Assembly (NCBI GenBank): GCA_001797315.1
Contig: MGPC01000029.1
Coordinates: 62,001 to 126,000, forward strand
DNA from: Curvibacter sp. GWA2_64_110
GTDB taxonomy: Bacteria > Pseudomonadota > Gammaproteobacteria > Burkholderiales > Burkholderiaceae_C
Reading direction: 5' to 3'
Length of the DNA stretch: 64,000 nt
Part shown: piece by piece, positions 10,931-57,734 of the stretch
How the letters are laid out: every line of letters begins with the position of its first letter
Numbering within the stretch: the first letter of the stretch is position 1
Made by a program: the position numbers and the translations under genes
Notes under the pieces: model-generated
Database searches by the model: none
Told to the model about the DNA's origin: nothing
The model's input: the letters and a program-made list of their open reading frames with translations, nothing else

Positions 10931-10991
10931 CTCAAAACCATTCTCTTTAACGACTTCCTTTGTAAATGGTAACAGCTTCAGTTTTGATAGC
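10931..10991 (-). repeat. Interspersed ~60-bp repeat, copy upstream of mshA (divergent)
   Basis: Read on the minus strand from 10991, it opens GCTATCAAAACTGAAGCTG and ends in AATGGTTTTGAG. This aligns with the other copies at the GCTAT opening and the AGCTG block, but has lost most of the CGCA and AAGGGC blocks. It lies in the mshF-mshA gap. It is the most diverged of the seven copies. Confidence 0.55.
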
Positions 10992-11066
10992 AAGCCATCC
11001 ACCCCATCAATCGCCAGACATCTTGCCCGCCTGTGCTTCTGGCACCACAGCAAGGACCATCGTTCA

Positions 11067-11591
11067 TCAACTCAGCGCCTCCCCTTTCCAGACATAGGTT
11101 TCCCGCGGAATCAACTGCAAGGGACCAGGGGCACGCACCACATCAAACCAGAGAATGCCCGCACCGCTCGGGCTGCTCAACCACTCTGGGTAAAGCGGTC
11201 GGTAGCCAATGCAGGTGCATACCGGATCAAACAACCAGCTGCCAGGAGGCAAGTTTTCCACCTCCTCTGCACGCATCTCACCCACATAGTTGGCAGGCAT
11301 CCGGTGGAGCAGCAAAAAAGGATTGATTTGCACCGCCGCACGCGGCTGGGCCGGCATGACGCCCTGCGGAACAGCCACCTGTTGCGCCAGGTAATCGACC
11401 ACGAAAGCCGTGCGCAGACCGCCCAGATTCGTCTTGATTGCAGAACCTTCAACCTGGGCCTGCACGTCACCAAAATCGCGCTGGCCGGACTGCACCACCA
11501 GCACCGACATTGTGCCGGCCGTCATGCAAACCATCAACAGCTGACGCCTCAGACTGGACGGGGCCTTTGCGAACAAGGAGCGCGCGCTCAT
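11067..11591 (-). CDS. MshF-like hypothetical pilus protein
   Basis: A 174-residue protein starting at 11591 (MSARSLFAKA), 2 bp after the mshG stop. It has a basic N-terminus, one membrane segment (QLLMVCMTAGTMSVLVVQSG) and a periplasmic domain with no motif I recognise. The domain has a CTCIGYRPLYPEWL segment and a WFDVVRAPGPLQLIPRE ending. MshF sits between mshG and the pilin genes in Vibrio and has the same bitopic layout. The symbol is withheld because position is the main evidence. Confidence 0.65.
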   Translation of the reverse strand: MSARSLFAKAPSSLRRQLLMVCMTAGTMSVLVVQSGQRDFGDVQAQVEGSAIKTNLGGLRTAFVVDYLAQQVAVPQGVMPAQPRAAVQINPFLLLHRMPANYVGEMRAEEVENLPPGSWLFDPVCTCIGYRPLYPEWLSSPSGAGILWFDVVRAPGPLQLIPRETYVWKGEALS

Positions 11592-11593
11592 GC

Positions 11594-12847
11594 TCAGCCA
11601 CCCCGCCCCATGGCCGCCTGCCCCATGTTCCACAAAGGCATGAAAATGCCAAGCGCCATCACCAGCATCAGTGCGGAAATGATGGCCAGCAAGATCGGTT
11701 CAATGGCGGCTGACAGCCCCTTGATGCTTTGGTCCACTTCACGCTCGTACATTTCTGCAATTTCAAACAGCATCGAATCCAACTCTCCGGTTTCCTCGCC
11801 CACGGTAATCATCTGCATGACGACCGGGGTAAAAATACCGACGCTGGCAGCACAACTTGCAATACTTGCGCCCCGTTCGATGCCATCACGCATCTGCTCG
11901 ATGCGGCTGCCAATATAGGCATTGTCTACGGTTTTGGCAACCACGGTCAATGCGGGAACCAAAGGCATGCCGCTTTGACTGGACAGGGCGAAGCTGCGTG
12001 CAAAACGCGACAGTGTGGCTTTGAGAATGATGTTGCCGACAATCGGCAAACCCAGCTTGCGACGGTCCCAGCGGTAGCGCCCATTCGGCGTCCTCAGATA
12101 GGCGCGCCAAGCCAATGCAGCACCGACAACCGCCCCGATCAACGCGAGCCACCACTGCTGCATCCAGCCGGAAAAGCCGAGCAGCATGCGCGTCACCAAA
12201 GGCAATTGAGTATTGAAACCGGCAAATACCTTGGCAAACACCGGAAGCACAAATACATTGAGAAGAACCAAGGCAAGCGACATGGCAATGAGAACGAACG
12301 ATGGGTAGCGCAAAGCCTGGCGTATACGGTCGCGCACGTCACGCTCGAACGCCAGGTGCTCGGACAGCCGCAAATACACCTCGGTCAGCCGGCCGGACAT
12401 CTCGCCCACACGGACCATGGCAATGTAAAAAGCGCCGAAAACCCCAGGGTGCTGAGCCAACGACGCCGAGAGTTCGCGCCCCTGGCTCAGGCTTTCCCGC
12501 ACGTCCTTGAGCACCTCCACCATGGCAGGCTTGGCCGTTGATGCCTCGAGGCCAGAGAAGGCCCGCAGGATCGGGACACCCGCCTTGTCCAGGGTGTACA
12601 TCTGGCGAGAGAAAAGCTCGACATCCTCACTGGTCACCGCCTGTCCGCTCAAGCGCAGCCACACCGACTGAAGAAAGCGATGGGTGCTGTGCGCGCCATT
12701 GGCAACACCAACCGACGCTTCAATATGAACCGGCGTGATATTGATGGCCAGCAACTGGTCAGCCACCGACGTTTCGGTCAGAGCCTCCATGCTCCCTTTG
12801 ATCAGTTCGCCCCGGGTATTGCGCCCTTGCCACGCGAAGACAGCCAT
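11594..12847 (-). CDS. mshG: MshG, inner-membrane platform protein (GspF/PilC family)
   Basis: A 417-residue polytopic inner-membrane protein. The N-terminus MAVFAWQGRNTRGELIKGSMEA and two tandem T2SSF domains (about residues 70-195 and 270-400) are clear. Conserved pieces are FSRQMYTLDKAGVPILRAF in the first domain and FARSFALSSQSGMPL in the second, with VGEETGELDSMLFEIAEMYE near the end. Three membrane helices are visible. It is the platform through which MshE transmits ATP hydrolysis to pilin extraction. It follows mshE by 6 bp. Confidence 0.94.
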   Translation of the reverse strand: MAVFAWQGRNTRGELIKGSMEALTETSVADQLLAINITPVHIEASVGVANGAHSTHRFLQSVWLRLSGQAVTSEDVELFSRQMYTLDKAGVPILRAFSGLEASTAKPAMVEVLKDVRESLSQGRELSASLAQHPGVFGAFYIAMVRVGEMSGRLTEVYLRLSEHLAFERDVRDRIRQALRYPSFVLIAMSLALVLLNVFVLPVFAKVFAGFNTQLPLVTRMLLGFSGWMQQWWLALIGAVVGAALAWRAYLRTPNGRYRWDRRKLGLPIVGNIILKATLSRFARSFALSSQSGMPLVPALTVVAKTVDNAYIGSRIEQMRDGIERGASIASCAASVGIFTPVVMQMITVGEETGELDSMLFEIAEMYEREVDQSIKGLSAAIEPILLAIISALMLVMALGIFMPLWNMGQAAMGRGG

Positions 12848-12853
12848 GAAGGT

Positions 12854-14617
12854 TTATCCCAGCTCGTCGACATCCTGGCCTACGCGCAGGGCTTCTGCCA
12901 ACGATGTGCGCCCCTGACGCACCAGTTCCAAGGCATGAAAAGACAACGTATGCCCTTTCATACGGGCTCGCGCCGCCTGCATGAAAGCCACCGGATCGGC
13001 CCGGGTCGCCGCCTGAGTGAGTGCGACATCCATCTCCAGCAGCTCATACACCCCATGCCGCCCCGCATAACCCGTGCCATTACAAGCCGAACAACCCAGG
13101 CCACGCATGGCCTTCACCGGCGCATCGCCTGGCATCAGCATGGTATCCAGCCAAGCCTGCTCCTGCGCCGTGGGTTCACGCGGTTCGCTGCAAACCTCGC
13201 AATTCACCCGCACCAGACGCTGCGCAATCACAGCCTGCAAGGAGGTCGCCACCATAAACGGCGGAACCCCCATGTCGAGCAGGCGAAAGGGCGTGCTGAT
13301 GGTATCCCGCGTATGCAGGGTCGACAACACCAAATGCCCGGTGATGGCGGCACGCAAACCGATCTCGGCCGTTTCCGCATCGCGCATTTCGCCGACCAGG
13401 ATGATGTCCGGGTCCTGGCGCAGGGAACCGCGCAGCACCCGGGCAAAAGTCAGGTCGATTTTTTCATTGACCTGAACCTGCGTCACGCCCGGCAGGCGGT
13501 ACTCCACCGGATCCTCCACGGTGATGATCTTGAGTTCGCTCGAGTTGATTTCGGAGAGTGCCGCATAAAGCGTCGTGGTTTTGCCCGAGCCGGTCGGACC
13601 GGTGACCAGCACCATGCCGGAAATCCGACCCAGCACTTCCCGAAAGCGTTTCAGCATCTCATCGGGCATGCCGATGAGGTCCAGCCGGCGCAGCACGCTA
13701 TTCTGATTGAGCAAGCGCATCACGACCGACTCGCCGTAGCTGGTCGGCATGGTGGACAGACGCACATCGATCGTCTGTTCCCGCACCCGGACACTGAAGC
13801 GTCCATCCTGGGGCAAACGCTTTTCCGATATATCGATGCCCGCCATCAGCTTGAGACGTTGCGACAAAGGGCCGGCAACCCGATTTTCAGCCAGTGTCTG
13901 CGTGTGGAGCACGCCGTCCACACGCACGCGGATCTGCAGACCCGTTTCCTGCGGTTCGATGTGGATATCCGATGCACCGATCTGGACCGCATCTTCAAAA
14001 ATCGACTGCAGCAACTTGACGATGGGCGCGCCTTCCTGCCCAACGGTATTGGCCAGTTCGCCAAAATCGACTTCGTCACTGAGGCTGAGATCCTTTTCCA
14101 CCGCACGCGCAAAACCGCTGATTTCCTCGGTTCGCCGGTAGAGCCGGTCGAAAGCCAGGGTCAGCTGCGTTTCCGGCGCCACGGCCATGGCAATGTTGCG
14201 CTTGGTCAGTCGGCTGACTTCATCGAAGGCAAAGAGGTCGAGCGGATCGGCAAAGGCAACCAGAAGATTGTGATCCTTGTCTTCAAGAACCAGCGCCCGG
14301 AAGCGGCGCGCCGCCGACTCCGGCAACAGCCTGACCAGCTCGGCACGAAACGGGAAGGTCTTGAGATTGACAAATGGAATGCGCAACTGCCGCGCCAAGC
14401 CATTGGCCAAGCCTTCTTCGGTAATGACACCACTCTCGATCAGCAGTCGCCCCAGCTTCTTGCCGGTCTTGTGCTGCAAGTCCAGCGTCTGCTGCAGCTG
14501 CTCCTGCGAAATCAGGCGCTGTTGGAGCAGCACGTCACCCAAACGCAGTTTTGGACGCCGCTCGGATGAGGCGCTCGGACCAGCTTGCGCAGGGGGATCT
14601 GCAGCGACCATGTTCAT
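12854..14617 (-). CDS. mshE: MshE, pilus assembly ATPase with c-di-GMP-binding MshEN domain
   Basis: A 587-residue GspE/PilB family hexameric ATPase. Two tandem 24-residue MshEN motifs are visible: RLGDVLLQQRLI..., residues 25-48, and KLGRLLIESGVI..., residues 54-77, separated by five residues. In Vibrio MshE this tandem binds c-di-GMP. Here the first motif has Arg34 where Gly is usual, and the second begins with Lys for Arg. Catalytic core: Walker A GPTGSGKT (340-347), Asp box DPVEYR, Walker B ILVGEMRDAETA, His box STLHTRDT, and a four-cysteine zinc site (CEVC...CSAC). It is the first gene of the MSHA run. The RBS is AAGG upstream of ATG 14617. Confidence 0.96.
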   Translation of the reverse strand: MNMVAADPPAQAGPSASSERRPKLRLGDVLLQQRLISQEQLQQTLDLQHKTGKKLGRLLIESGVITEEGLANGLARQLRIPFVNLKTFPFRAELVRLLPESAARRFRALVLEDKDHNLLVAFADPLDLFAFDEVSRLTKRNIAMAVAPETQLTLAFDRLYRRTEEISGFARAVEKDLSLSDEVDFGELANTVGQEGAPIVKLLQSIFEDAVQIGASDIHIEPQETGLQIRVRVDGVLHTQTLAENRVAGPLSQRLKLMAGIDISEKRLPQDGRFSVRVREQTIDVRLSTMPTSYGESVVMRLLNQNSVLRRLDLIGMPDEMLKRFREVLGRISGMVLVTGPTGSGKTTTLYAALSEINSSELKIITVEDPVEYRLPGVTQVQVNEKIDLTFARVLRGSLRQDPDIILVGEMRDAETAEIGLRAAITGHLVLSTLHTRDTISTPFRLLDMGVPPFMVATSLQAVIAQRLVRVNCEVCSEPREPTAQEQAWLDTMLMPGDAPVKAMRGLGCSACNGTGYAGRHGVYELLEMDVALTQAATRADPVAFMQAARARMKGHTLSFHALELVRQGRTSLAEALRVGQDVDELG

Positions 14618-25385: not shown

Positions 25386-26594
25386 TCACTTGCCATTCGC
25401 GGAAGCGGCCTGCACTGACGCCTGCGCCGGAGATGCTACTGAATTGATAGCTGTCTGCGCAGGACTGGAAAGGGGTTTAACCGCTTTTTCCTGGTAGATC
25501 ATGACCTTCTGACCCGGCGACAGCACATGCACACCGGCCGCCACCACCAGCGTACCCGGCAGCAGGCCGCTGGCCACCACGGCCTCATTGCCGTCGGCCG
25601 TGGCAATCTGCACCGGCTGCGACTTCACCGTCATGCTGGCCCGGTCGAGCACCCAGACCGCCGTGGCCGGCCCTTCCTGGCGCAGCGCGCTGGTTGGCAG
25701 CTTGATCACTTGCGCACTCTGCGCCTCCTGCGACTGCGGCAACACCGTCACGGTGGCGCCCAGCGGCGGCACATCTTTCGCATCCTTCACCTCCAGCCCC
25801 ACCTTGACCTGGTAAGTCCGCGTCACCGGGTCGGCGCTGGCCGACACTTCGCGCACCTTGCCGTCCAGCAGGGTCTGGCCCGGCCAGACCCGCACGCCGA
25901 CCGGCGCACCCGGGCGGACGGCGGCAATCTTGTCCTCCGGCACCGAGAACACGGCATCGCGCGGCCCGTCCTGGGCCACCCGCACCACCGGCAAGCCGGC
26001 ACTCACCACCTGCCCCGGTTCGGCCTCGACGGCCGTGACCAGGCCCGCCGCATCGGCCACCAGCGTGGTGTAGGCCCCCTGGTTGCGTTGTGTGGACAAC
26101 TGGGCCTTGGCCTGGTCGACCTGGGCCTGCGCCGCCTTGAGCGTGGCCTCGCGCCGCTCCAGCTCGGCACCGCTGATGAAGTTCTGCTCCTTCAGTTCCT
26201 TGAAGCGCTTGAAGTCGGCCGCCGCCAGGTCGCGGTTGGTCACCGCCGCCCCCAGCTGCGCCTGCGCCGCGTCAGCCGCCAGCTGGTAATCCTGCGGGTC
26301 AAGCTGCGCCAGCACCTGGCCGGCCTTGACGCGCTGGCCCAGTTCCACATAACGCTTGGTCAATTTGCCGGCCACGCGAAAGCCCAACCGCGACTCGATG
26401 CGCGGCCGCACCTCACCCGAGAACTCCAGCGCCGACTGCATGTTGCCGGCACCGACCGTCAGCACCTTGACCGAGCGCACCGGCTCTTCGGCCGGCGCGG
26501 GACGGGAACAGGCCGTCAGCACGCCTGTCGATGCAGCAGAGACCGCCAAGAGCAGCGTCAGCCGCCGGAACGAGGAAAAATATGAGATGGACAT
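25386..26594 (-). CDS. RND efflux periplasmic adaptor lipoprotein (MFP)
   Basis: A 402-residue membrane fusion protein with a lipoprotein signal (lipobox LTAC, Cys29). The hairpin/lipoyl/barrel order is visible: FSGEVRPRIESRLGFRVAGKLTKRYVELGQRVKAGQVLAQLD, a coiled hairpin (about 90-160), the second lipoyl half LVTAVEAEPGQVVSAGLPVVRVA, and the beta-barrel part VRVWPGQTLLDGKVREV. The last ~40 residues are Ala/Ser/Pro-rich and include the segment encoded by an interspersed repeat (25435-25491), so that tail is probably dispensable. It is first in the operon, behind the palindrome at 26619-26640. Confidence 0.94.
   Translation of the reverse strand: MSISYFSSFRRLTLLLAVSAASTGVLTACSRPAPAEEPVRSVKVLTVGAGNMQSALEFSGEVRPRIESRLGFRVAGKLTKRYVELGQRVKAGQVLAQLDPQDYQLAADAAQAQLGAAVTNRDLAAADFKRFKELKEQNFISGAELERREATLKAAQAQVDQAKAQLSTQRNQGAYTTLVADAAGLVTAVEAEPGQVVSAGLPVVRVAQDGPRDAVFSVPEDKIAAVRPGAPVGVRVWPGQTLLDGKVREVSASADPVTRTYQVKVGLEVKDAKDVPPLGATVTVLPQSQEAQSAQVIKLPTSALRQEGPATAVWVLDRASMTVKSQPVQIATADGNEAVVASGLLPGTLVVAAGVHVLSPGQKVMIYQEKAVKPLSSPAQTAINSVASPAQASVQAASANGK
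25435..25491 (+). repeat. Interspersed ~60-bp repeat, copy in efflux adaptor gene
   Basis: On the plus strand it starts GCTACTGAATTGATAGCTG, then TGCGCAG and AAAGGGG. It lies antisense within the adaptor gene and encodes part of the low-complexity C-terminal tail (PLSSPAQTAINSVA) without breaking the frame. Confidence 0.75.
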
Positions 26595-26723: not shown

Positions 26724-27575
26724 GTGAACACATCCCCCGCGCCCCAGCCGATCGAGCACTACGAAAACTTCCCGGTCGCCTCCTGGCTCTGCCCGCCCCG
26801 GCTGCGCGCGCCGATTGCCGCCATCTACCACTTCGCCCGCACCGCCGACGACATCGCCGACGAGGGCGACGCTTCGGCACAACAGCGGCTGGACGATCTG
26901 GCGACCTACCGCGCCGACCTGCTGGCCATGGCCACCGGCCAGCCGGCCAGCGGCCGCTGGCCGCTGGTGTTCGGGCCGCTACAGGCCATGCTGCAAGCCT
27001 TTCAGTTGCCGCTGCCGCTGCTGACCGACCTGCTCGACGCCTTCACGCAGGACGTGCGCAAGACGCGCAACCACGCCAGCTACGCCGATCAGGCCGAACT
27101 GCTGGACTACTGCCGCCGCTCGGCCAACCCGGTGGGCCGCCTGCTGCTGCATCTCTACGGCGTGCAGGACGAGGCGGCCTTGACGCAAAGCGACGCCATC
27201 TGCAGCGCGCTGCAGTTGATCAACTTCTGGCAGGACCTGAGCCGCGACATCCCGCGCGGTCGCCACTACCTGACGGACGCGGACTGCGAGGCGTTCGGCG
27301 TCACGCGCGCCGAGCTGCAGGCCTTGCAGCAGACACCAAACGCTACCAAATTGATAGCTGCTCAGGTAAAGATGGCAAGGGCCATGATGCAAAAAGGCAC
27401 TGAACTCGTGCACCACCTGCCGGGCCGCGCCGGCTGGGAGCTGCGCCTGGTGGTGCAAGGCGGCCTGCGCATCCTGGACAAGATCGAGGCGCTGGACTAC
27501 GCCACGCTGCAGACCCGGCCCACCTTGAAGTCATGGGATGCAGCCGTGATGCTGTGGCGCGCGCTGTGGATGTGA
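26724..27575 (+). CDS. hpnC: HpnC, squalene synthase family (hydroxysqualene-forming)
   Basis: One of three enzymes (HpnD, HpnC, HpnE) that convert farnesyl diphosphate to squalene; HpnC converts presqualene diphosphate to hydroxysqualene. I prefer the GTG at 26724 (MNTSPAPQPIEHYENFP, 283 residues) to the ATG at 26646. The extra 26 residues look unlike family members, and the ATG lacks an RBS. First Asp-rich motif: ARTADDIADE (Asp42, Asp43, Asp46). Second: NFWQDLSRDIPRGR. Conserved end: LPGRAGWELRLVVQGGLRILDKIEA. A repeat copy (27342-27404) encodes residues ~207-227 in frame, at nearly the family length. It is divergent from the efflux operon. Confidence 0.93.
   Translation: MNTSPAPQPIEHYENFPVASWLCPPRLRAPIAAIYHFARTADDIADEGDASAQQRLDDLATYRADLLAMATGQPASGRWPLVFGPLQAMLQAFQLPLPLLTDLLDAFTQDVRKTRNHASYADQAELLDYCRRSANPVGRLLLHLYGVQDEAALTQSDAICSALQLINFWQDLSRDIPRGRHYLTDADCEAFGVTRAELQALQQTPNATKLIAAQVKMARAMMQKGTELVHHLPGRAGWELRLVVQGGLRILDKIEALDYATLQTRPTLKSWDAAVMLWRALWM
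27342..27404 (+). repeat. Interspersed ~60-bp repeat, copy inside hpnC
   Basis: It starts GCTACCAAATTGATAGCTG, followed by a diverged middle and GCAAGGGCCATGATGC then AAAAAGGC. It is read sense in hpnC as NATKLIAAQ...MMQKG without a stop. Base composition is visibly more AT-rich than the flanking codons. Confidence 0.75.
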
Positions 27576-28480: not shown

Positions 28481-29779
28481 ATGAAACTGGCTGTCATCGG
28501 CGCCGGCTGGGCCGGGCTGGCCGCCGCGGTGCAGGCCACACGCGACGGCCACCAGGTCACGGTATTCGAGGCCGCCCGCACCCTGGGCGGGCGGGCTCGC
28601 GCCGTGCCGGGCACGCTGCCCGATGGCCGGGATGTCCTGCTCGACAACGGCCAGCACATCCTGATCGGCGCCTACACCGATACCCTGCGCCTGATGCGCG
28701 ACGTTGGCGTGGATCCGCAGGCCGCGCTGCGGCGCGGGCCGCTGACGCTGCAGTTCCCCGACGGAAGCGGCCTGCGCCTGCCGCGCCTGCCGGCCCCGCT
28801 CGACGCCTTGATCGGCATCGCGCTGGCACGCGGCTGGCCACTGGGCGCGCGCCTGGGGCTGCTGCGCGAGGCGCTGCGCTGGCAGATGGCAGGTTTCCAG
28901 TGCGCCCCCGCGCTGTCGGTGGCGCAGCTGTGCCAGCGCCTGGCGCCGCCGGTGCGGCAGGAACTGATCGAGCCGCTATGCGTCTCGGCCCTCAACACGC
29001 CGGCCGCGCAGGCCAGTGCCCAGGTGTTTCTGCGCGTGCTGCAGGACGCGCTGTTCGGCATCCCTGGCGGCTCGCACCTGCTGCTGCCGCGGCAGGATCT
29101 CACCGCCTTGTTCCCTACTGCTGCCGCAAGCTGGCTGCAGCAACACGGCGGCACAGTGCATGCCGGCACCCGTGTCATGCAGCTGCGTGCCGAAGGCCCA
29201 CGCTGGCAGCTCGACGGCCTGCCCTTCGATGCCGTGCTGCTCGCCGCCTCGGCATCAGAATCGTCCCGGCTCCTTGTGGAATCTGCGTCAACCGCTCCCA
29301 ATTTAATAGCACCCAGCATGCACACCTGGGCCGCCACGGCCAGCGCGTTGCGTTACGAGGCGATCACCACCGTCTATGCCTGGGACCACAACGCCGCCCT
29401 GGCCACGCCCATGCTGGCCCTGCGTTGCACACCTGACGCGCCGGCGCAGTTCGTGTTCGACCGCGGCCAGCTCGGCGGCCCGGCCGGCCTCCTGGCCTTT
29501 GTCGTCAGCGCCAGCGACGCGGAACGCGAAGTACTGCAAGGCCAGGTGCTGCAACAGGCCCGCACACAGCTGGGCCTGAACCTGCAAGCGGTGCAGACCG
29601 TGGTGGAAAAACGCGCCACCTTCGCCTGCACGCCCGGCCTGCAGCGTCCGCCGCAAGCCATCGCCCCCGGCCTGCTGGCCTGCGGCGACTATGTGGCCGG
29701 CCCCTACCCGGCCACGCTGGAAGGCGCCGTGCGCAGCGGCCTGCAGGCTGTCGCGCGCTTGCCGCGGACCGGCACCTGA
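28481..29779 (+). CDS. hpnE: HpnE, hydroxysqualene dehydroxylase (FAD-dependent)
   Basis: A 432-residue amine-oxidase-like flavoprotein that reduces hydroxysqualene to squalene. The N-terminal dinucleotide fold is VIGAGWAGLAAAVQATRDGHQVTVFEA (residues 4-30), followed by GGRAR. LLDNGQHILIGAY is an HpnE signature. The C-terminal FAD contact is LLACGDYVAGPYPATLEGAVRSGLQAV. It is 22 bp after hpnD. The segment RLLVESASTAPNLIAPS (about 264-280) is encoded by an interspersed repeat and joins two conserved parts. Confidence 0.94.
   Translation: MKLAVIGAGWAGLAAAVQATRDGHQVTVFEAARTLGGRARAVPGTLPDGRDVLLDNGQHILIGAYTDTLRLMRDVGVDPQAALRRGPLTLQFPDGSGLRLPRLPAPLDALIGIALARGWPLGARLGLLREALRWQMAGFQCAPALSVAQLCQRLAPPVRQELIEPLCVSALNTPAAQASAQVFLRVLQDALFGIPGGSHLLLPRQDLTALFPTAAASWLQQHGGTVHAGTRVMQLRAEGPRWQLDGLPFDAVLLAASASESSRLLVESASTAPNLIAPSMHTWAATASALRYEAITTVYAWDHNAALATPMLALRCTPDAPAQFVFDRGQLGGPAGLLAFVVSASDAEREVLQGQVLQQARTQLGLNLQAVQTVVEKRATFACTPGLQRPPQAIAPGLLACGDYVAGPYPATLEGAVRSGLQAVARLPRTGT
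29251..29310 (-). repeat. Interspersed ~60-bp repeat, copy inside hpnE
   Basis: Read on the minus strand from 29310 it starts GCTATTAAATTGGGAGC, then GACGCAGATTCCACAAGG. The CGCAGATTCCACA core is identical to the copy in the DUF349 gene. It is antisense to hpnE and keeps the frame open. Confidence 0.75.
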
Positions 29780-33007: not shown

Positions 33008-34099
33008 ATGGCATTCAAACAAGAACCCGCGTACACCCATGGCCAGGCGCCGTCTACGGCCATTCTGCTGTGCAACCTGGGCACACCCGATGCGCCCACG
33101 CCGGCGGCGCTGCGCCGCTACCTGGCCGAGTTCCTGGGCGACCAGCGCGTGGTGGAGATCCCCAAACCGATCTGGTGGCTGATCCTGCACGGCATCATCC
33201 TGCGCGTGCGCCCAGCCAAGTCGGCCGCCAAGTACGCCAGCATCTGGACACCGGAAGGCTCACCGCTGAAGGTCTGGACCGAGAAACAGGCACAAGGGCT
33301 GCAAGCCTGGCTGCAGAACCAGGGCCACCACGTCACTGTGCGCTACGCCATGCGCTACGGCAACCCGTCGATCGCCACGCAACTCGATGCCCTCAAGGCC
33401 GAGGGCACCACGCGCGTGCTGGTGCTGCCGGCTTACCCGCAGTATTCCGGCACCACCACCGCCAGCGTGGCCGATGCCGTCTACCACTGGGCCGCGCAGG
33501 TGCGCAGCCTCCCGGAGTTGCGCTTCGTCAACCGCTACCACGACGACGCCGGCTACATCGCCGCCCTCGCCCAGCGCATCCGTGCTCACTGGCAGGCCCA
33601 CGGCCAGCCCGCCAAGCTGGTGATGAGCTTCCACGGCGTGCCCGCGCGCACGCTGACACTTGGCGACCCCTACCACTGCGAATGCCTGAAGACGGCGCGC
33701 CTGCTGGCGCAGCAGCTGGGCCTGCACCCGGAGCAGTACCAGGTCACGTTCCAGTCGCGCTTCGGCAAGGCCAAGTGGCTGGAGCCCTATACCGAGCCGA
33801 CGCTGATCGCGCTGGCCAAGGCCGGCGTCCAGCGCATCGACGTGGTGTGCCCCGGCTTCACCAGCGACTGCCTGGAGACGCTGGAAGAAATTGCGCAGGA
33901 AGCGCGCCAGGCTTTCCTGATGGCCGGCGGCCAGGAATTCCACTACATCCCCTGCCTGAACGACAGCCCCGAGGCCATCGCCGCGCTGGGCGGCGTCGCA
34001 TTGCAGCACCTGGCCGGCTGGCCGACGCAGCGCACGCCCGACGCCCAGGCACTGGCCGCTTCGCGCGCCGCCGCCCTGGCGCTGGGTGCCCGCAACTGA
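33008..34099 (+). CDS. hemH: Ferrochelatase
   Basis: Last step of protoheme synthesis: inserts ferrous iron into protoporphyrin IX. It has 363 residues from ATG 33008; the upstream extension is antisense to the HAD gene and is rejected. Conserved parts: [54 protein letters not shown], the catalytic-His region [57 protein letters not shown] and the final [17 protein letters not shown] hexamer five bases before the ATG suggests a leaderless or very short-leader transcript. Confidence 0.97.
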
Positions 34100-34109: not shown

Positions 34110-34171
34110 GCTATCGTTTCAGTAGCTGCCAGCGAATATCCAGCAAGGGCCAGAGGCCAATCTGGTTTGAA
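34110..34171 (+). repeat. Interspersed ~60-bp repeat, intergenic copy after hemH
   Basis: It starts GCTATCGTTTCAGTAGCTG, continues CAGCGAATATCCAGCAAGGGC and ends CAGAGGCC...GGTTTGAA. This is the most complete copy, lying in the convergent gap between hemH and the glutathione S-transferase gene, where it is free of coding constraint. Confidence 0.8.
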
Positions 34172-34175
34172 GTTT

Positions 34176-34826
34176 CTAGCGCTGACGGCGCAGCGTCTCG
34201 TAGGCCGGCCGCCCCAGGCACTGGGCCAGCCAGGCACTGACCAGCGGGTGCTGGGCCAGCAGTTCACGCGCCGGTTTCACCCACAGCATGACGCTGGCCA
34301 CGCACAGGTCGGCCACCGTGAAACGCGCAGCGGCGATGTAGTCCTCACCGCGCGCCTGCTGCTGCGCCAGGTGTTGCTCCAGCACGCGCAGCGGCACCTG
34401 CAGGCGCCGCTCGGCCGCCTCAGCCAGCTCATGCTTGCGCTGCTCGGCCGGCATCACCATGCGGTGCATCAGCACGGTCAACGCATCCTTCTCGACTTCG
34501 GTCACGGTCCAGAAACTCCAGCGCAAGGCCTCGGCGTCCTCGCGCGGCGTGGCCGGCACCAAGTTCACGCCGTCGGGCTGGCCGTGATGGCGCGCAATGT
34601 AGAGCGCGCAGGCCATGCTCTCCCACACCGTCACGTCGCCTTCCGGGCGATGGTCGACGATGACCGGGATGTGGCCGTTGGGGTTGAGTGCCTGGAACTC
34701 GGGTGTGCGCGTCACGCCCGTCTTGTAGTCCGTGGGCTGATGCTCGAAATCGAGTCCGAGTTCGGTCGCCACCCACAAGGGACGGACCGCGCGCGACGCG
34801 ATGATGCCGTAGATCGTCAAGGCCAT
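34176..34826 (-). CDS. Glutathione S-transferase family protein
   Basis: A 216-residue cytosolic GST starting at 34826 (MALTIYGIIASRAVRP) behind a GGAGCAGGC RBS. The thioredoxin-fold N-domain has the cis-Pro in NPNGHIPVIVD and WESMACALYIARHH, the usual glutathione-binding edge. The C-domain is all-helical with FTVADLCVASVMLW, the N-capping box of GSTs. The Ser in SRAVRP is the likely catalytic residue. The substrate is unknown. It lies 85 bp downstream of the alpha/beta hydrolase and may be read with the liv operon. Confidence 0.93.
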   Translation of the reverse strand: MALTIYGIIASRAVRPLWVATELGLDFEHQPTDYKTGVTRTPEFQALNPNGHIPVIVDHRPEGDVTVWESMACALYIARHHGQPDGVNLVPATPREDAEALRWSFWTVTEVEKDALTVLMHRMVMPAEQRKHELAEAAERRLQVPLRVLEQHLAQQQARGEDYIAAARFTVADLCVASVMLWVKPARELLAQHPLVSAWLAQCLGRPAYETLRRQR

Positions 34827-34911
34827 GCCTGCTCCAAAGAATGAAGCCTGCATTCTGCCAAGCTCCGCTCCGGCGCTGGCCGCCGCACGGCCGGTATCTG
34901 TCGCCGGCTTG

Positions 34912-45670: not shown

Positions 45671-45772
45671 TGAATTTGTCGGATTGGGTGGCAGGCCGTC
45701 GCGCATGCACTACGGGCCGCCGGTGTCAACACGGTGTGGGTCTTGCCGCGGTGGCGATTCCACGGGCGAAAC

Positions 45773-46723
45773 CTAGGGATTGTACCAAGCCAGCACCGCC
45801 CCCTGGCGTTCGACAAAGCCGCTGCCGACCTTGAGGCGGATGCGATGGCCGCGCGTGGTGCAGGCGGCGATCTGGTCCAGCAGTTCATTCAACTGGGCCG
45901 CACTGGGTACGGTGCCGTGGGCACTGCGCAGCCAGTGGCGCAGCACATTGGCCTGGCGCGCCCGGCTCAGACGCTGCAGAAGTGCGATCTGCAGCGGTTG
46001 GCCAAGCTGCACCAGATCGTCGACCGCCACCTCGTTGAGCAGCCGCTGCGCTTCGGCGGCATGCGCGGCACTGCGGGCAAAGGTGTCGCGGAACTGCGGA
46101 AAGGCCTCATCGAGTGCCGGCAGCAGGCGCGCGCGGATACGGTTGCGCGTGAACTGCTGGTCGGCATTGGTGGGGTCCTCGATCCAGGTTTCACCGCGTT
46201 CGCGCAGCCAGCGGCGCAGCTCGGCCCCCGGCACGTCGAGCAGGGGGCGGTAATAGCGGATGCCATCGCGCGTCCACTGCGCCGGCATGGCGCTCAGGCC
46301 CGGCAGGCCGGCACCGCGGCTCAAGGCCAGCAGCAGGGTCTCGGCCTGATCGTCAGCCTGCTGCGCAACTGCTATGTTTTTAATAGCATGAGGCGCAGTA
46401 TCGGAAAGGGCGATATCGCGAAAAGCCTCGTAACGGGCACGGCGCGCCGCCTCTTCCGGGCTCTGCCCTGGCGCAGGGTGCGCATCGACCCGGCGTACTT
46501 GCAGCGGCACACCCAGTCGCGCGCAGAAGGCACGGCAGTGCTGCTCGAAGGCGTCCGCCGCCGCCTGCAGGCCGTGGTGGATGTGAATGGCACTGACCTG
46601 GCCCGGCCACTTTTCGGCACAGGCCAGCAGCAGCGCCGTGGAGTCGGCGCCGCCGCTGTAGGCCACAGCCAGAGGCAAGCCGGGCTCGAACCCGCCCATG
46701 GCTTGCGCCAGCGTCTTGCTCAT
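45773..46723 (-). CDS. tilS: tRNA(Ile)-lysidine synthase TilS, short form
   Basis: Converts C34 of tRNA-Ile(CAU) to lysidine. The N-type ATP pyrophosphatase PP-loop is YSGGADST (Ser23-Thr29). RRARYEAF precedes a repeat-encoded segment (LSDTAPHAIKNIA), then AQQADDQAETLLLAL, where His is common before or at the QQ positions. TRNRIRARLLPALDEAFP follows. At 316 residues it lacks the C-terminal TilS_C domains of E. coli TilS (432), a known shorter form. It is 48 bp after accA. Confidence 0.93.
   Translation of the reverse strand: MSKTLAQAMGGFEPGLPLAVAYSGGADSTALLLACAEKWPGQVSAIHIHHGLQAAADAFEQHCRAFCARLGVPLQVRRVDAHPAPGQSPEEAARRARYEAFRDIALSDTAPHAIKNIAVAQQADDQAETLLLALSRGAGLPGLSAMPAQWTRDGIRYYRPLLDVPGAELRRWLRERGETWIEDPTNADQQFTRNRIRARLLPALDEAFPQFRDTFARSAAHAAEAQRLLNEVAVDDLVQLGQPLQIALLQRLSRARQANVLRHWLRSAHGTVPSAAQLNELLDQIAACTTRGHRIRLKVGSGFVERQGAVLAWYNP
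46371..46427 (+). repeat. Interspersed ~60-bp repeat, copy inside tilS
   Basis: It starts GCTATGTTTTTAATAGC, then GGCGCAGTATCGGAAAGGGC. Antisense to tilS; it encodes DIALSDTAPHAIKNIA immediately before the ADDQAET motif, keeping the frame and adding only a few residues relative to typical TilS. Confidence 0.75.
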
Positions 46724-46771
46724 CGGACGGCCTCCGCGCCGCGCGCGACGGTGCGCGCCGGGCCGGCGGCC

Positions 46772-47749
46772 TTACTTGCCGCTGGTCTTGGTGTCGGTGA
46801 AACGGCCATAGCTCTGCAGGCGCTCGTAGCGGCGCTCCAGCAACTCCTTGGCCTTGAGGTCAGCCACCTGACGGTAGGCCTCGTTGAGGGCGCGCTTGAG
46901 GAAGGCCGCCATCTGCTTGTGGTCGCGGTGCGCGCCGCCGACCGGCTCGTTGACGATCTTGTCGATCAGCCCCAACGCCTTGAGGCGATGCGCGGTGATG
47001 CCCAGCGCCTCGGCCGCATCGGACGCCTTGTCCGCCGTCTTCCACAGAATGGAGGCGCAACCCTCGGGGCTGATCACCGAGTAGATCGAATACTGCAGCA
47101 TCAGCAACTGGTCGCCGACCGAGATCGCCAGCGCGCCGCCGGAGCCGCCTTCGCCGATGATGGTGGTGATGATCGGCACTTCCAGCTGCGCCATCTCGAA
47201 GATGTTGCGGCCGATGGCTTCGGACTGGCCGCGCTCCTCGGCGTCGATGCCGGGGTAGGCTCCTGGCGTGTCGACGAAGGTGAACACCGGCAGCTTGAAC
47301 TTCTCGGCTGTCTTCATCAGGCGCAGCGCCTTGCGGTAGCCTTCGGGCTTGCTCATGCCGAAGTTGCGCATGCCGCGCTCCTTGGTGTCGCGCCCCTTCT
47401 GCTGACCGATCACCATGCAGGCATTGCCGTTGAAGCGCGCCAGGCCGCCAACGATGCTGAGGTCGTCGGCAAAGTGACGGTCGCCGTGCAGCTCGACGAA
47501 ATCGGTGAACAGCTCATTGACGTAGTCCAGCGTGTAGGGACGCTCCGGGTGGCGTGCGATCTTGGTGATCTGCCACGACGTCAGGTTGCTGTAGACATCC
47601 TTGGTCAGCTGCAGGCTCTTCTTGCCCAGCTGGTCGATTTCCGCGGTGATGTCCACCGCCGACTCGTTCTGCACATAGCGCAGCTCTTCAATCTTGGCTT
47701 CGAGTTCGGCAATCGGTTGCTCGAAATCGAGGAATGTTTTTTTCGCCAT
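46772..47749 (-). CDS. accA: Acetyl-CoA carboxylase carboxyltransferase subunit alpha
   Basis: A 325-residue subunit transferring carboxyl from carboxybiotin to acetyl-CoA in fatty acid synthesis. It starts [24 protein letters not shown] behind a consensus AAGGAG RBS. Signature parts: [76 protein letters not shown], and [10 protein letters not shown]. Its beta partner AccD is not in the window. Confidence 0.97.
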
Positions 47750-47828
47750 CGACTAACTCCTTGTTCTCTGCGCTGGCCCCTGGGCTGCGGATCGCCTGCA
47801 TCCAGGCAGGTGCCGCTCGGGCCAACGG

Positions 47829-48479
47829 CTAATACTCCACCGGCACGGGGTCGAGGGAGCGCCAAATATACCAAGTCGCCACGCTGCAATACGGCGCCCA
47901 GGCCGCGGCCACTTCGCGGGCGTCGCTGCGGCTCACCGACTCACCGGAAAAATAGTTTCGGCTGATGCCGTTGATCAGGCCCACATCGTCCAGCGGCAGC
48001 ACATTGGGCCGCATCAGGTGGAAGATCAGGAACATCTCGGCCGTCCAGCGGCCGATGCCGCGGATGTCCACCAGTTCGGCAATGATGGCCTCGTCATCCA
48101 TGCCCGCCCAGTCGGCCACCTGCACCAGGCCATTGTCGAAGTGCAGCGCCAGATCCACCAGGTACTCGACCTTGCGCACACTCAGACCGGCGGCACGCAT
48201 GTCGTCGACCTTGAGCTTGAGCACGTTGGCCGGCGTGACCTTGCGCGGCAGCTTGACGAAACGATCCCACACCGTCTGCGCCGCCTTGACCGAAATCTGC
48301 TGGCCCACGATGCTGCGCGCCAGCGTGGTGAAGGCATCGCCCCGGGTCTGCAGGCAGGCGTCGCCATGCTGCGGAATGAGCCGCTTCATCACCCGGTCTT
48401 TCTTCATCAGGTGCTTGCAGGCTTCGTCCCAGTAGTCGGGCGTGAAGACCTTGGGCGCTATGCTTTTGGTCGCTGCCAC
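47829..48479 (-). CDS. DNA-3-methyladenine glycosylase (HhH-GPD, AlkA-like)
   Basis: A 216-residue base-excision glycosylase beginning at a GTG (48479) with AAAGG nine bases before it. The helix-hairpin-helix is seen at LVDIRGIGRWTAEMFLIFHLMRPNVLPLDD, with the catalytic Asp in LPLDDVG. ARSIVGQQISVKAA is the family opening of the core. It lacks the N-terminal AlkA domain, so it is closer to short MAG/AlkA2-type enzymes. It is 45 bp after cysS and precedes accA. Confidence 0.93.
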   Translation of the reverse strand: MAATKSIAPKVFTPDYWDEACKHLMKKDRVMKRLIPQHGDACLQTRGDAFTTLARSIVGQQISVKAAQTVWDRFVKLPRKVTPANVLKLKVDDMRAAGLSVRKVEYLVDLALHFDNGLVQVADWAGMDDEAIIAELVDIRGIGRWTAEMFLIFHLMRPNVLPLDDVGLINGISRNYFSGESVSRSDAREVAAAWAPYCSVATWYIWRSLDPVPVEY

Positions 48480-53468: not shown

Positions 53469-53490
53469 AGGCCGGCCTGACCGCCACCCC

Positions 53491-54303: not shown

Positions 54304-54305
54304 AC

Positions 54306-55109
54306 ATGTGGGGCTGGCTGCGGCGCTTGGGGCGCAGCGCCCGCGCACACCGCGGCATTCCGGATGCGCTGTGGCAAACCACCCTGGGCAATTACCCGTT
54401 TCTGGCTGCTTGCTCCCCGGCAGAGCTGCAGCGCCTGCGCGAGCTCAGCGCCCTCTTCCTGGCCGAGAAAGAGTTTCATGGTGCCCAGGGACTGGCCATT
54501 ACGGATGCCATGGCAGTGGCGATTGCCGCCCAGGCCTGTCTGCCGGTGCTGCACTTCGGCCCCGGCCGCCAGCCGCTGGACTGGTACGACGATTTCGTCG
54601 GCATCGTCGTGCATCCGGACGAAGTGCTGGCGCAACGCGAAGTGATGGATGAGGACGGCGTGGTGCACCACTACGACGAAGTGCTGGCCGGCGAGGCGAT
54701 GCAAGGCGGCCCGGTGATGCTGAGCTGGCAGGATGTGGCTGCCGCCTCCAGCGAGAGCGGCTACAACGTGGTCATCCATGAGTTCGTGCACAAGCTCGAC
54801 CTGCGTGATGGCCAGCCCGACGGCTGCCCGCCTCTGGGCGCCGGCTTCCTGGGAGCCGCCAGTGCGCGCCAGGCACGCGAACACTGGCTGACCACGCTGC
54901 AAGCCAGCTTTGAGGATTTCCACGAACAGGTGATCAAGGCCGAGCGCTTTGGGGCGCCGCCGCCCTGGCTCGACCCTTATGGGGCCGAGGCCATCGACGA
55001 GTTCTTCGCCGTGACCAGCGAAGCCTATTTCGTCAACCGCCCGCAGTTTGCCCGCGACTTCACCGCGCTCGTGCCGCTGTTCGACGCCTTCTACCGGCCC
55101 GGCGCCTGA
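54306..55109 (+). CDS. mtfA: MtfA-family zinc peptidase
   Basis: A 267-residue cytosolic metallopeptidase matching E. coli MtfA (265), which interacts with the glucose-PTS repressor Mlc. The zinc motif is HEFVH (158-162), in VVIHEFVHKLDLRDG. The third ligand is probably the Glu in DEFFAVTSEAYF (about 240). It starts 2 bp after lpxH. The regulatory partner Mlc is not obvious in this group, so the role may differ. Confidence 0.92.
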   Translation: MWGWLRRLGRSARAHRGIPDALWQTTLGNYPFLAACSPAELQRLRELSALFLAEKEFHGAQGLAITDAMAVAIAAQACLPVLHFGPGRQPLDWYDDFVGIVVHPDEVLAQREVMDEDGVVHHYDEVLAGEAMQGGPVMLSWQDVAAASSESGYNVVIHEFVHKLDLRDGQPDGCPPLGAGFLGAASARQAREHWLTTLQASFEDFHEQVIKAERFGAPPPWLDPYGAEAIDEFFAVTSEAYFVNRPQFARDFTALVPLFDAFYRPGA

Positions 55110-55127
55110 CGACGCCGGTCGTGAAGA

Positions 55128-57734
55128 TCAGCGGCGCAACAAGACCTTGAGCACGTTCTGCAGGCGCCGCGCCTGCTCAGGCTCGAAGGCCGAACCCAGC
55201 ACGCGTGCTGCATCCTGGCCCCAGGTCTGCACCGGCGTCGGGTCGTTGCGTCGGGTGAGCAACTGCAGTTGCAGAGCACGACGGGCGTCCAGCGCAGCCG
55301 CCGGTGTCGGCACCTCGGCCGCAATCTCCAGGCGCAGCAAGGCGGTAGCCGCCTCGCCGGAAGCCGCTGCCGACAAGGCTTGGCTCCACAGCGCGCGCAC
55401 CGCCGGCGCGACCCGGCTGCCGAGTTCCTGCGCCGTCGGCAACTGGGCCGCATCGCGCTGCTCCCAGGCTGAGAGCAGATGCGTCAGTGATTCGCCATGC
55501 GCCTGCGCCGCCAGCTTCTTCAGCGCCAGTTGGGCATGCTCCAGCGCCTCGCGCTGGGCACGGAAAGCGGCATCACCCAGACGCGGCTGATCACGGTAGG
55601 ACTCGCGTGGTTCACGCCGGCCACCGCGCTCTGCGCCACGCTCGTCCCGGCGGCCCCCCTCGCGCCGCTCGCCAGGCCGGCCACGGCCCGCCGGTGCGGC
55701 CGGCTCGGCCTTTTTCATGCCGGGACGGTCGTCACCACGCACGGCCACCACCGGCTTGCGCGGTTTGGGCGGCTCGGCAGCGGGTGCCACGGCTTCGCCC
55801 GGCGCTTCTTCCGCTCCTGTTTCTGTAGCAGCTGGCGCAGATTCCACATGGGCTTGAGCCTTTTTTTCCTCTGGAACCGGAGCACCCTCCGAAGCACGCA
55901 GTGCGCTCTCCAGCGCATTCATGGCCGCCCGGATGGTCTGCGCATCACCACCGGCGTTGGCCGCTTCCAGCGCCTTGGCCGCTTCCATCACCTGGCGGTC
56001 GCGCTCGCTCATGGCACTGGTAGCCTTCTCGCGCTCGGCCGTCTTGCGGTTGAAAGCGTCGTCGATCGGCTTGCGGAAAGCATCCCACAGCTTCTGCTCC
56101 TGGCGTCGCTCCAGCGGCACGGCATGGGCTTCGGCCTGCCAGCGCTGCTGCAAGGCCTTGACGGCGTCGATGCGCAACACCGGTGCAGCCCCCAGCACGG
56201 CAGCTTCCTCGATCATGGCCTGGCGGCGCTGCAGACTGGCCTTTTGCACCGCCTCCAGCGGCGCCGCCGCCGCTGCCATGGTGGTTTTCCACAGCGGCTG
56301 CAGCTCGGCAAAGGCCTTTTCGCTCAGGTGGCCGGCCTCGCGCCAGCGCTCGGCAAACTGATGCAGCTCGCGATTGAAGCCTTTCCAGTCATCGCCCGCC
56401 GCGGTCGTGTTCGCCGCCGCCCAGGCCTTCAATTCCTCCACCAGGGCCAGTCGCTTGGCCCGGTGCTCGGCCGCCTCGGCCCGCACCTTGTCCAGCCAGG
56501 CCTCGACCACCTTGTGCGCCTGGTTGCAGGCCTCGTCGAAGCGCTTCCACAGCGCATGGTTGGGCACGCCGCCCTGGTCGGTCTGTTTCCACTGCTCACG
56601 CAAGGCGCGCAGGGTTTCCTGCATCTTGCGCCCGCCCAGGGCCTGGCCCTCGGGCCGGTTCAGCAGCGCTTCGGCCTTGCCCACCAGTTCCTCGCGCAAC
56701 TGGTCGGCGCGCCAGCGCTGCCAGCCTTCGAGTTCGCCGGCCGCCGCCAGGGCCGCATGGACCTGCTTGTCGAGCGCGTCATCGATGTGGCGGCCATGCT
56801 CCTTGAGCGCCTGGCGCAAGTTGGCGGCCGCACCGGTGCTGGCCTTGCCGTGGCCTTCGGCCACTTCCTGCTCCAGTTTTGAGAGCGCCTCGCGCACAGC
56901 CGACGTGGCCTGGGCACGGATTTGAGGGTCAACTTTCAGTTTGGCCGGCTGCGGCGCCGCTTCAGGCGGCAGGCCGCGCGCCTGGCGCAGCTCGTCGGCC
57001 CAGACCGGCACTTGCGGCAAGGTCACCGTTGCATCAGCCGCCGCGGCCACGGCCTGCGCCAGCGCCGCGCTGAAGGCCTCCCACACCAGCGTCAGCTGCC
57101 CGCGCGAGGTTTCCAGCTGCGGCGGAAAACGCGCATCAACGCTGGGCCAGTTGGCATCGCTCGGCAAGGCCGCCGCCTGTTCCTGCCAGTTGGTCACGTC
57201 GGTACGCAAGGCGTCAGCCGCGGCCTGGGCGTCCTTCCACGACTTGGTGGACAGCACCTCGATGCGCTGGGCCAGCAGCACCGCGGCCTCGCGCTGCACC
57301 TGCACGCGATGCTGCAGGTCTTCGATCACCTTGACCCGCTCCGCCAGCTGCACCTTGAGGCCGGCCAGCGGCTCGCGGCTCAGCGGCGCACCGGCCTTGG
57401 CGGCGTCACGCTGCCAGGCCAGGGCATCGGCGATGTTGAGCTTGCCGGCCTCCAGCAGCGCCTGTGCCTTGGCAGACCATTCGGCGGCCATCGCCTCCTG
57501 TCCCTTGGCACGGCGGATGTCGTCCAGGCGCTCGCGCAACAGCTTGGCCGCGCCCTTGTCCTTGACACTGAGTTCCTTGTAGACCGCTTGCAGTTGCTCA
57601 GGTGCCGGTTCGCCGGCCAGCCATTCGCGCACGCGCGCCGCGCGCTCACCCGAGGTGGCGGCAGAAAAAGCGCCGCCGGTGAGGGCGTCGAGTTGTTGAA
57701 GGTCGTTCGGTTTGGCAGGCACGGAGGAGTTCAC
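55128..57734 (-). CDS. DUF349 repeat protein
   Basis: A ~868-residue cytoplasmic protein, largely helical, composed of several DUF349 repeats (W-x-x-A-F-like units around about 230-600, e.g. LRALREQWKQTDQGGVPNHALWKRFDEACN). A charged, Arg/Gly-rich region (about 700-775) with RGRPGERREGG follows, then a C-terminal helical part. The start is unsettled: GTG 57734 is used here because of its position, with GTGs at 57806 and 57722 also possible. A repeat copy (55813-55870) lies in the low-complexity part. DUF349 proteins are conserved in Burkholderiales; function unknown. Confidence 0.85.
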   Translation of the reverse strand: MNSSVPAKPNDLQQLDALTGGAFSAATSGERAARVREWLAGEPAPEQLQAVYKELSVKDKGAAKLLRERLDDIRRAKGQEAMAAEWSAKAQALLEAGKLNIADALAWQRDAAKAGAPLSREPLAGLKVQLAERVKVIEDLQHRVQVQREAAVLLAQRIEVLSTKSWKDAQAAADALRTDVTNWQEQAAALPSDANWPSVDARFPPQLETSRGQLTLVWEAFSAALAQAVAAAADATVTLPQVPVWADELRQARGLPPEAAPQPAKLKVDPQIRAQATSAVREALSKLEQEVAEGHGKASTGAAANLRQALKEHGRHIDDALDKQVHAALAAAGELEGWQRWRADQLREELVGKAEALLNRPEGQALGGRKMQETLRALREQWKQTDQGGVPNHALWKRFDEACNQAHKVVEAWLDKVRAEAAEHRAKRLALVEELKAWAAANTTAAGDDWKGFNRELHQFAERWREAGHLSEKAFAELQPLWKTTMAAAAAPLEAVQKASLQRRQAMIEEAAVLGAAPVLRIDAVKALQQRWQAEAHAVPLERRQEQKLWDAFRKPIDDAFNRKTAEREKATSAMSERDRQVMEAAKALEAANAGGDAQTIRAAMNALESALRASEGAPVPEEKKAQAHVESAPAATETGAEEAPGEAVAPAAEPPKPRKPVVAVRGDDRPGMKKAEPAAPAGRGRPGERREGGRRDERGAERGGRREPRESYRDQPRLGDAAFRAQREALEHAQLALKKLAAQAHGESLTHLLSAWEQRDAAQLPTAQELGSRVAPAVRALWSQALSAAASGEAATALLRLEIAAEVPTPAAALDARRALQLQLLTRRNDPTPVQTWGQDAARVLGSAFEPEQARRLQNVLKVLLRR
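55813..55870 (+). repeat. Interspersed ~60-bp repeat, copy inside the DUF349 gene
   Basis: It starts GCTCCTGTTTCTGTAGC, then GGCGCAGATTCCACATGGGC. Antisense to the gene; it encodes AQAHVESAPAATETGA in the disordered region without a stop. Confidence 0.75.

Follow-up and report, generated by a model that had tools for sequence, protein, structure and literature searches.

A long DNA signature dispersed through Comamonadaceae genomes as a putative self-DNA uptake signal

The window, i.e. the whole 64,000-nt stretch of a Curvibacter contig analysed here, belongs to a genome (G000) of 3.40 Mb in 41 contigs. A sequence-only reading had described a family of seven interspersed copies in it, five of them inside genes. 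The seven stretches have the sequences described there, and a weight matrix (PWM) built from 74 copies located elsewhere in the genome, with sites scored in bits, shows the family to be real, with six of the seven places as members (30-63 bits). Five of these six are indeed in genes. The seventh place, on the minus strand, scores below 14 bits and was ruled out as a family member. No site reached ≥14 bits in 20 first-order Markov shuffles of the window. The sites and the genes around them are:

10931..10991, minus strand: listed previously, non-member (PWM <14 bits)
25435..25500, plus strand: copy (PWM 52.0), antisense within the minus-strand gene 25386-26594
27342..27407, plus strand: copy (PWM 45.6), sense, within the plus-strand gene ending at 27575
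29245..29310, minus strand: copy (PWM 29.8), antisense within the gene 28481-29779 (+), in a variable-length linker
33008-34099 (+) and 34176-34853 (-): convergent genes flanking the next copy
34110..34175, plus strand: copy (PWM 63.2), filling the gap between the convergent genes
46371..46436, plus strand: copy (PWM 43.7), within the minus-strand ORF 45773-46723
55813..55878, plus strand: copy (PWM 44.0), antisense within the gene 55128-57806 (-), in a variable-length segment
56870..56935, plus strand: marginal partial copy (PWM 20.6), in the same gene as the 55813 copy (55128-57806, -)

At the 46371 copy the gene caller favoured the opposite ORF 45734-47965 over 45773-46723. Counterparts of the seven window sites exist in three further species, at an identity of about 88%. 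The 25435 and 55813 copies are found also in genomes G001, G010 and G023, and orthologous copies of 29245 score 40.8-45.7 bits in three relatives. In the 27342 copy host codons stand in place of the middle block GCGCA, and its orthologues score only 30.0 (G023), 25.1 (G010) and 16.1 bits (G001). The site at 56870 is uninformative because it is near-identical in all four genomes, flanks included.

The copies had been aligned over about 40 positions; the information content reaches further, over positions about -4 to 66, which makes a signature of ~65-70 bp and about 62 bits. Its consensus in the genus is RATT-GCTAT-YR-A-tract-YR-ATAGC-TG-YTN-GCGCA-N7-CAAGGGC-YRGAGGCC-RATTTGA..GAA, and other lineages carry variants. 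Shape and arms were analysed in a set of 84 copies, 7 of which come from relatives. At steps 8-9, 9-10 and 52-53 TpA was observed 0 times against 10.9, 10.4 and 16.7 expected, while such depletion is absent at steps 28-29 and 29-30. This avoidance of TpA in two A-tracts is a DNA-shape signature, and the copies are best explained as instances of one long candidate recognition sequence in double-stranded DNA.

The arms GCTAT and ATAGC can pair and GGGC..GCCC could make a second hairpin, as might be expected of an RNA-level element such as a terminator, a 3' UTR hairpin or a riboregulator. The location of 41 of 77 copies outside genes, against ~12% expected, would suit such an element as well, as would the overlap of one copy (L003) with an Rfam hit below threshold (Phe_leader, E 0.5). 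However, arm positions 5 and 13 covary weakly (TA 62, CA 11, TG 6, CG 4, TT 1), and genic copies show no gene-strand bias, with 11 sense and 12 antisense (one gene call is doubtful). Furthermore, no Rfam family exceeds its gathering score at any copy in the window, and an E-value scan of 14 of 30 strict-pattern loci gave sub-threshold matches only, a single one overlapping a copy. An RNA element is thus very unlikely.

For counts across the genome we used the strict pattern GCTATN7ATAGCTGN3GCGCAN7CAAGGGC with ≤3 mismatches, the reversed pattern serving as control, and for counts across genomes a looser left-half pattern of the signature. The strict pattern occurs at 93 places in G000 (49 on the plus and 44 on the minus strand) and its control at 0, which together with the shuffled windows bears out the excess expected of a true family; the left-half pattern occurs at 145. 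Six members per 64 kb extrapolate to ~320 per genome, so that the earlier estimate of hundreds holds. Relatives of the family in other Comamonadaceae, mentioned in the sequence-only reading, were found as well, with up to 641 left-half matches per genome. Over-representation, dispersal and presence on both strands are as in the DNA uptake sequences DUS and USS. The left-half pattern stayed at control level in 291 genomes from other Burkholderiales families. Of 26 genomes from the genus to which the window belongs, 4 hold 93-96 copies and 22 hold 0-5; within one genus, counts of 0 and 0 stand against 317-472. The signature is over-represented, confined to one family of the order and patchy within it. 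Acidovorax temperans DSM 7270 carries it at 439 places (control 1). A plasmid search with a G000 copy gave matches in 1796 of 72,556 plasmid records, and among 40 listed matches 36 are annotated DUF1010; a Simplicispira copy had no match among plasmids and phages. On viral contigs, 47 stretches bear the left-half core.

The origin of individual copies can be followed best in mutL (L043). Its 62-bp site scores 59 bits in G000 and -17 bits in G012, with a gapless alignment and 20 base differences, 17 of 20 codons being synonymous; 19 of the 20 differences are toward the motif, a count that is partly built in as G000 was chosen as the copy and this copy is among the 74 training copies. Across 33 genomes the site is graded from -72 to +68 bits, with ≥20 bits in 10. 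The mutL copy was built by base substitution, not insertion. The tree of this gene requires four or more label changes, of which its well-supported branches force only 1; this falls short of proving independent gains. It had been proposed that the family is an artefact if other genera carry identical bases at the same place. This is partly the case at mutL, where intermediate forms occur in other genera, but the family is nevertheless no artefact. The favoured reading frame noted for genic copies was right, while the related peptides (AINSVA, AIKNIA) are due to where coding sequence can take the motif, as mutL reads AINSIA with or without it.

Insertion, which the sequence-only reading had implied, does not fit the four of 12 coding copies (mutL, L057, L061 and 27342) that show no length change against repeat-poor relatives; at 27342 the length is unchanged in 16 of 17 aligned repeat-poor genomes of the same genus. 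The other 8 have indels, some of 27-45 nt, and the 46371 site is 6-12 nt longer than in five repeat-poor relatives. Whole-block absence was found in 0 of 12, and none of these 12 is a full-length in-frame insertion. For three intergenic copies (34110, L041, L046) insertion may still apply, since the entire block is missing in relatives, with edges that are blurred at such divergence; the 34110 block is absent from G007, G012 and G021, and G024 has unrelated sequence there. At another G000 site (C29:142382) the corresponding stretches of G010 and G023, which align poorly, contain no copy. Many intergenic copies occupy gaps barely wider than themselves, which means either insertion or spacers shrinking round the copies. 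These block-like absences and tight gaps, and also the patchy distribution, would agree with a mobile element of REP, MITE or RPE-like type that is non-autonomous, was moved in trans and is by now old and diverged. Rickettsia palindromic elements and REPs resemble the signature in being partly palindromic and interspersed, with some copies in coding frames, but they are insertions. Apart from the constant length in four coding copies, the nearest neighbours among the 84 copies differ at ≥5 of 41 positions, so that near-identical recent copies were not found, and the sites shared with three other species likewise argue against mobility. We consider a mobile element quite unlikely.

Because 41-mers pair only 13 of 84 copies between G000 and G001 (partner at ≤5 differences), a flank-based alignment was used for pairing. 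Between these two genomes, 18 of 273 motif positions differ against 70 of 299 variable positions in 13 coding copies (ratio 0.28), and 10 of 84 against 32 of 92 in 4 intergenic copies (0.34). For the six window copies compared with G023 and G010 the values are 27 of 252 and 55 of 276 (0.54). As the copies were chosen in G000, the contrast is inflated, and this alone could give a ratio of ~0.5; the data indicate that motif positions are conserved, only partly beyond ascertainment. Intervals below 3 kb are few: G000 has 1 among 56 (out of 60 intervals, 56 were taken) where 6.3 are expected, and G001 has 2 among 54 (no control), while evenness of spacing by variation was not significant (P 0.13). 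Slow change at motif positions, TpA avoidance as a double-strand shape signature and the scarcity of short intervals are what would be seen if a chromosome-organising or segregation protein bound here, with selection on site density maintaining hundreds of them; matS, parS and SlmA sites are examples of this kind. Selection per site would be weak among hundreds, yet in mutL most of a motif of ~60 bits was rebuilt codon-wise, and the within-genus patchiness would demand repeated loss. Neighbouring copies are on the same strand in 37 of 60 (P 0.04) and 36 of 54 cases (P 0.07), a weak clustering without clear polarity, and replication-strand polarity was dropped. We regard a chromosomal site of this type as unlikely.

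We favour a self-DNA uptake signal of Comamonadaceae as the putative function of the signature, with a probability of about 0.5. In its favour count the build-up in place at mutL, the constant length of three further coding copies, the slower change at motif positions, TpA avoidance, the lack of gene-strand bias, and the patchy distribution with variants within one family. In naturally competent members of the family the type IV pilus machinery for uptake would include a DNA receptor at the cell surface that binds the signature and prefers fragments bearing it. Imported fragments would recombine into the genome, and because of this, mutations toward the motif are proposed to gain a transmission advantage, so that copies would build up wherever protein code or spacing allows. 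The A-tracts and YR steps may help DNA to bend or kink for passage through the secretin, a role likewise proposed for the Haemophilus uptake signal (PMC7811141). Indirect evidence comes from A. temperans, with its 439 places: PMC4212676 reports transformants of this species only with own-species DNA, although the failure with sister-species DNA could reflect limits of recombination rather than of uptake. The paper also describes uptake as selective in Verminephrobacter eiseniae, a species with close free-living relatives in Acidovorax, and names no sequence.

Counted against an uptake signal are the whole-block intergenic absences, the coding indels, the partly inflated conservation contrast, the non-significant evenness of spacing, a density in the window about tenfold below that of Haemophilus, and the great length, as the signature far exceeds the known cores of 9-12 bp. 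ComEC occurs in 80 of 80 genomes (76 above the cut-off), namely in all 40 carriers (39 above) and all 40 genomes that have 0-3 matches (37 above); carrier G028 has sub-cut-off pieces only. ComP_DUS pilins were found in 70 of 72 genomes, motif-rich and motif-poor, and none in carrier G427 (422 copies). Both were rejected as the gene separating carriers from non-carriers.

The signature shares with the USS of Haemophilus and other Pasteurellaceae a dispersed family-specific motif, a core with AT-tracts, lineage variants and, as seen in mutL, point mutation in place; PMC7811141 states that uptake sequences of Haemophilus evolve by point mutation and are 'not inserted elements', and that AT-tracts are thought to ease kinking. 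The two sequences are unrelated, and Haemophilus has a 9-bp core about once per kb, compared to ~65-70 bp about once per 10 kb here; uptake bias is proven for Haemophilus and putative here. With DUS and ComP of the Neisseriaceae the signature has in common restriction to a family, lineage variants and, as proposed, self-DNA preference and type IV pili; DUS differ in their 10-12 bp and known receptor, and ComP_DUS-family pilins were found here also in genomes that lack the motif. In 2017 two motif pairs were given as separate novel motifs, listed without function and not recognised as one family: ATAGCT(N)22CAAAAG of Polaromonas naphthalenivorans (125 copies) and GCTTAT(N)5AAGCG of Acidovorax ebreus (114 copies), both mostly intergenic, genic copies being outside the target of that study (PMC5217627). 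By letters and spacing only, they correspond to signature positions 13-18/41-46 and 25-30/36-40, respectively.

As of 2020, strong self-specific uptake was attributed to two families only (PMC7811141). Tentatively, and at slightly less than even odds, Comamonadaceae may be a third family in which a self-DNA password evolved independently, here of a new type: a two-A-tract site of ~65-70 bp recognised through its DNA shape and varying between lineages. Molecular drive coupled to uptake would have written this site into hundreds of genes and spacers, and in integron gene cassettes that now reside on enterobacterial plasmids it would persist as a watermark of their origin. If true, this would account for the own-DNA preference reported in Acidovorax and Verminephrobacter, and the much longer signal and the many carrier and non-carrier lineages would let origin, loss and genome effects of uptake bias be compared directly. 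The signature may also mark mobile cassettes of Comamonadaceae origin. Whatever its reader, a motif of ~60 bits laid over codons shows with unusual clarity how a force at the level of DNA competes with protein coding.

The seven stretches singled out in the sequence-only reading match its description when read directly in the window, and six of them (25435, 27342, 29245..29310, 34110, 46371 and 55813) scored 30-63 bits with a weight matrix of 71 positions and about 62 bits, trained on 74 copies outside the window. The seventh, at 10931, had no matrix match and is ruled out as a copy of the element, while one marginal extra site was found (56870). No matches of at least 14 bits appeared in 20 Markov shuffles of the window. 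In the whole genome (G000) the full pattern occurs at 93 places with up to 3 mismatches and its reversed control at none. The signature spans about -4 to 66. Other features noted in and near the window are:

4909-11053 (-), type IV minor-pilin-like gene cluster: four genes carrying an N-terminal methylation motif, including a GspH-like one (9974-10441), plus a DUF6701 protein
63039-63168 (+), ZMP/ZTP riboswitch, 52 bits, over the Rfam gathering score
G000:C29:133610, about 7.6 kb past the window end, ComP_DUS-family pilin

Within the genus, 93-96 places were found in 4 of 26 genomes (G000 and the carriers G001, G010 and G023) and 0-5 in the other 22. Similar sequence in other Comamonadaceae had been mentioned in the sequence-only reading, and a survey of 399 genomes from 141 genera of the family with the left-half pattern (1 mismatch allowed) bears this out: the pattern occurs in 156 genomes of 68 genera, in many of them only 1-5 times, and counts reach 641 per genome, with 0-3 for reversed controls. 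Genomes of one genus can contrast completely, with 317, 368 and 472 matches vs 0 and 0 in genus group g71 and 354, 120 and 65 vs 2 and 2 in g88. Outside the family, 291 genomes of 50 other families (of 300 Burkholderiales genomes surveyed) gave 0-1 matches, the control level. When 84,980 species were scanned with a strict 26-mer, 37 stretches matched; their names are those of Comamonadaceae genera or of Burkholderiales or proteobacterial bins without further placement. Twelve genomes chosen by 26-mer bait are all carriers, rich by construction, among them Acidovorax temperans DSM 7270 (439 places), Polaromonas sp. P2-4 (422), Simplicispira metamorpha (405), Rhodoferax bucti (396) and Curvibacter delicatus (154). 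In one further genome (G309, group g125) GAGC (9) or GTGC (1) replaces the family's GCGC at 10 listed of 15 places, possibly a lineage variant; its three sister genomes have >200 standard matches each.

Two motif pairs have been catalogued as candidate new motifs with no known function (PMC5217627): ATAGCT(N)22CAAAAG, with 125 copies in Polaromonas naphthalenivorans, and GCTTAT(N)5AAGCG, with 114 copies in Acidovorax ebreus. By letters and spacing they fit element positions 13-18/41-46 and 25-30/36-40, respectively. No publication uniting both pairs, tracing their evolution or assigning a role was found in the open-access literature.

As described from the sequence alone, the first 17 bases form an inverted repeat: this 17-bp dyad, GCTAT-N7-ATAGC, makes up the left half and is followed by GCGCA, a variable stretch, CAAGGGC, GGCC and a second A-tract. 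The right half in other genera is closer to GCGC..GCGCTAGAGGCC. Among 84 copies (7 from other genomes of the genus) the dyad centre at positions 8-10 reads AAA, AAT, ATT or TTT in 82, and the first A-tract is often bordered by CA/TG steps. TpA was never observed at steps 8-9, 9-10 and 52-53 (10.9, 10.4 and 16.7 expected) and is at or above expectation at 28-29 and 29-30. Outside the genus the avoidance is weaker (4 and 4 observed vs 8.6 and 7.5 expected, 59 copies). The variable columns correlate chiefly with near neighbours and not across the dyad. The element seems to be recognised through the shape of double-stranded DNA and not to act as an RNA stem.

Placement was assigned for 77 of the 93 copies with a home-made gene caller (coding about 88% of the loci examined): 41 lie outside genes, 13 partly overlap and 23 are inside. 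Of the latter, 11 are sense and 12 antisense by these gene calls, and the preferred reading frame claimed earlier was recovered as a single phase in 9/11 and 9/12, respectively. No near-identical pairs exist among the 84 copies compared. Intervals <3 kb are scarce in G000 (1/56, 6.3 expected) and overall spacing variation is not unusual (P 0.13). On G000 contig C29 7/7 strong copies occupy one strand and two weaker copies the other, and on contig C1 of another genome (G428) 19 of 23 listed copies share a strand, in contrast to mixed strands on other contigs.

Each of the seven window-region sites, the marginal one included, has a same-place counterpart in G001, G010 and G023 (~88% identity, 16 to 64 bits); three further G000 sites on the contig had no orthologous stretch in the data, and at C29:142382 no copy is present in the G010 and G023 stretches, which align poorly. 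None of 12 coding copies compared is absent as a whole block in repeat-poor relatives: four are unchanged in length (27342, L043 in mutL, L057, L061) and eight have indels, which measure 3-12 nt in four of them and reach 27-45 nt in the other four. Intergenic copies 34110, L041 and L046 are absent as whole blocks in relatives. At the place of copy L021 the repeat-poor relative G012 (L208) keeps the left half GCTATTGTTTTAGTAGC, followed by an alignment gap, which suggests either a relic or a half-built copy.

At the mutL site G000 and G012 differ by 20 substitutions in 62 bp, 19 of them toward the motif, with 17/20 codons synonymous. Scored across 33 genomes, this site shows a gradation between -72 and +68 bits (10/33 with at least 20 bits; seven genus groups); in A. 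temperans the element is absent there. Comparison of G000 with G001 gives a difference of 6.6% at motif positions and 23.4% at variable positions for 13 coding copies; the corresponding values are 11.9% and 34.8% for 4 intergenic copies, and flanks differ by close to 14%. When the six window copies are compared with G023 and G010, motif positions differ by 10.7% and variable positions by 19.9%. Because the copies were picked in G000, this ascertainment alone would reduce divergence at motif positions by as much as half, so that the G023/G010 ratio (0.54) adds nothing and the two G001 ratios of about 0.3 indicate constraint on motif positions.

The element also occurs within DUF1010 frames of integron cassettes, on plasmid R751 beside dfrB3 (class 1 integron, 56.7 bits) and in a second cassette between dfrA12 and aadA2 (53.3 bits).

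DUF1010 (PF06231) cassette ORFs with a full copy of the element
NC_001735.4, 33502-33792, class 1 integron (L379)
NZ_CP023845.1, 51272-51562, class 1 integron (L380)

A query copy matches 1796 of 72,556 plasmid records, 59 at 80-90% and 1737 at 60-80%, the latter with E near 0.04 among matches listed. The antisense translation of the element corresponds to the first part of the Pfam DUF1010 profile, and DUF1010 was the best Pfam match (E 0.0008-0.08, below its cut-off) for 5 of 9 antisense translations of G000 copies, the nine being chosen among 35 with open frames. Since cassettes carry the element and the domain begins with its antisense translation, a Comamonadaceae origin of these cassettes is pointed to, and the published dfrB origin agrees (PMC11662351).

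Against an uptake signal count the length and low density of the element, the block-like intergenic differences and the competence genes tested (ComEC, ComP_DUS), none of which separates carriers from non-carriers. A. temperans DSM 7270 and ATCC 49665, the strain of the work on own-DNA selection, we take to be the same type strain. Selection of own DNA has been reported for two bacteria of this group (PMC4212676), one of which, A. temperans, has a genome rich in the element. Uptake sequences as described (PMC7811141; PMC1939737) are resembled in a long motif built by substitution in mutL, in intergenic preference with strand indifference, and in family specificity with lineage variants. Stepping from motif to uptake, we infer at roughly even odds (about 0.5) that the element is a self-DNA uptake signal.
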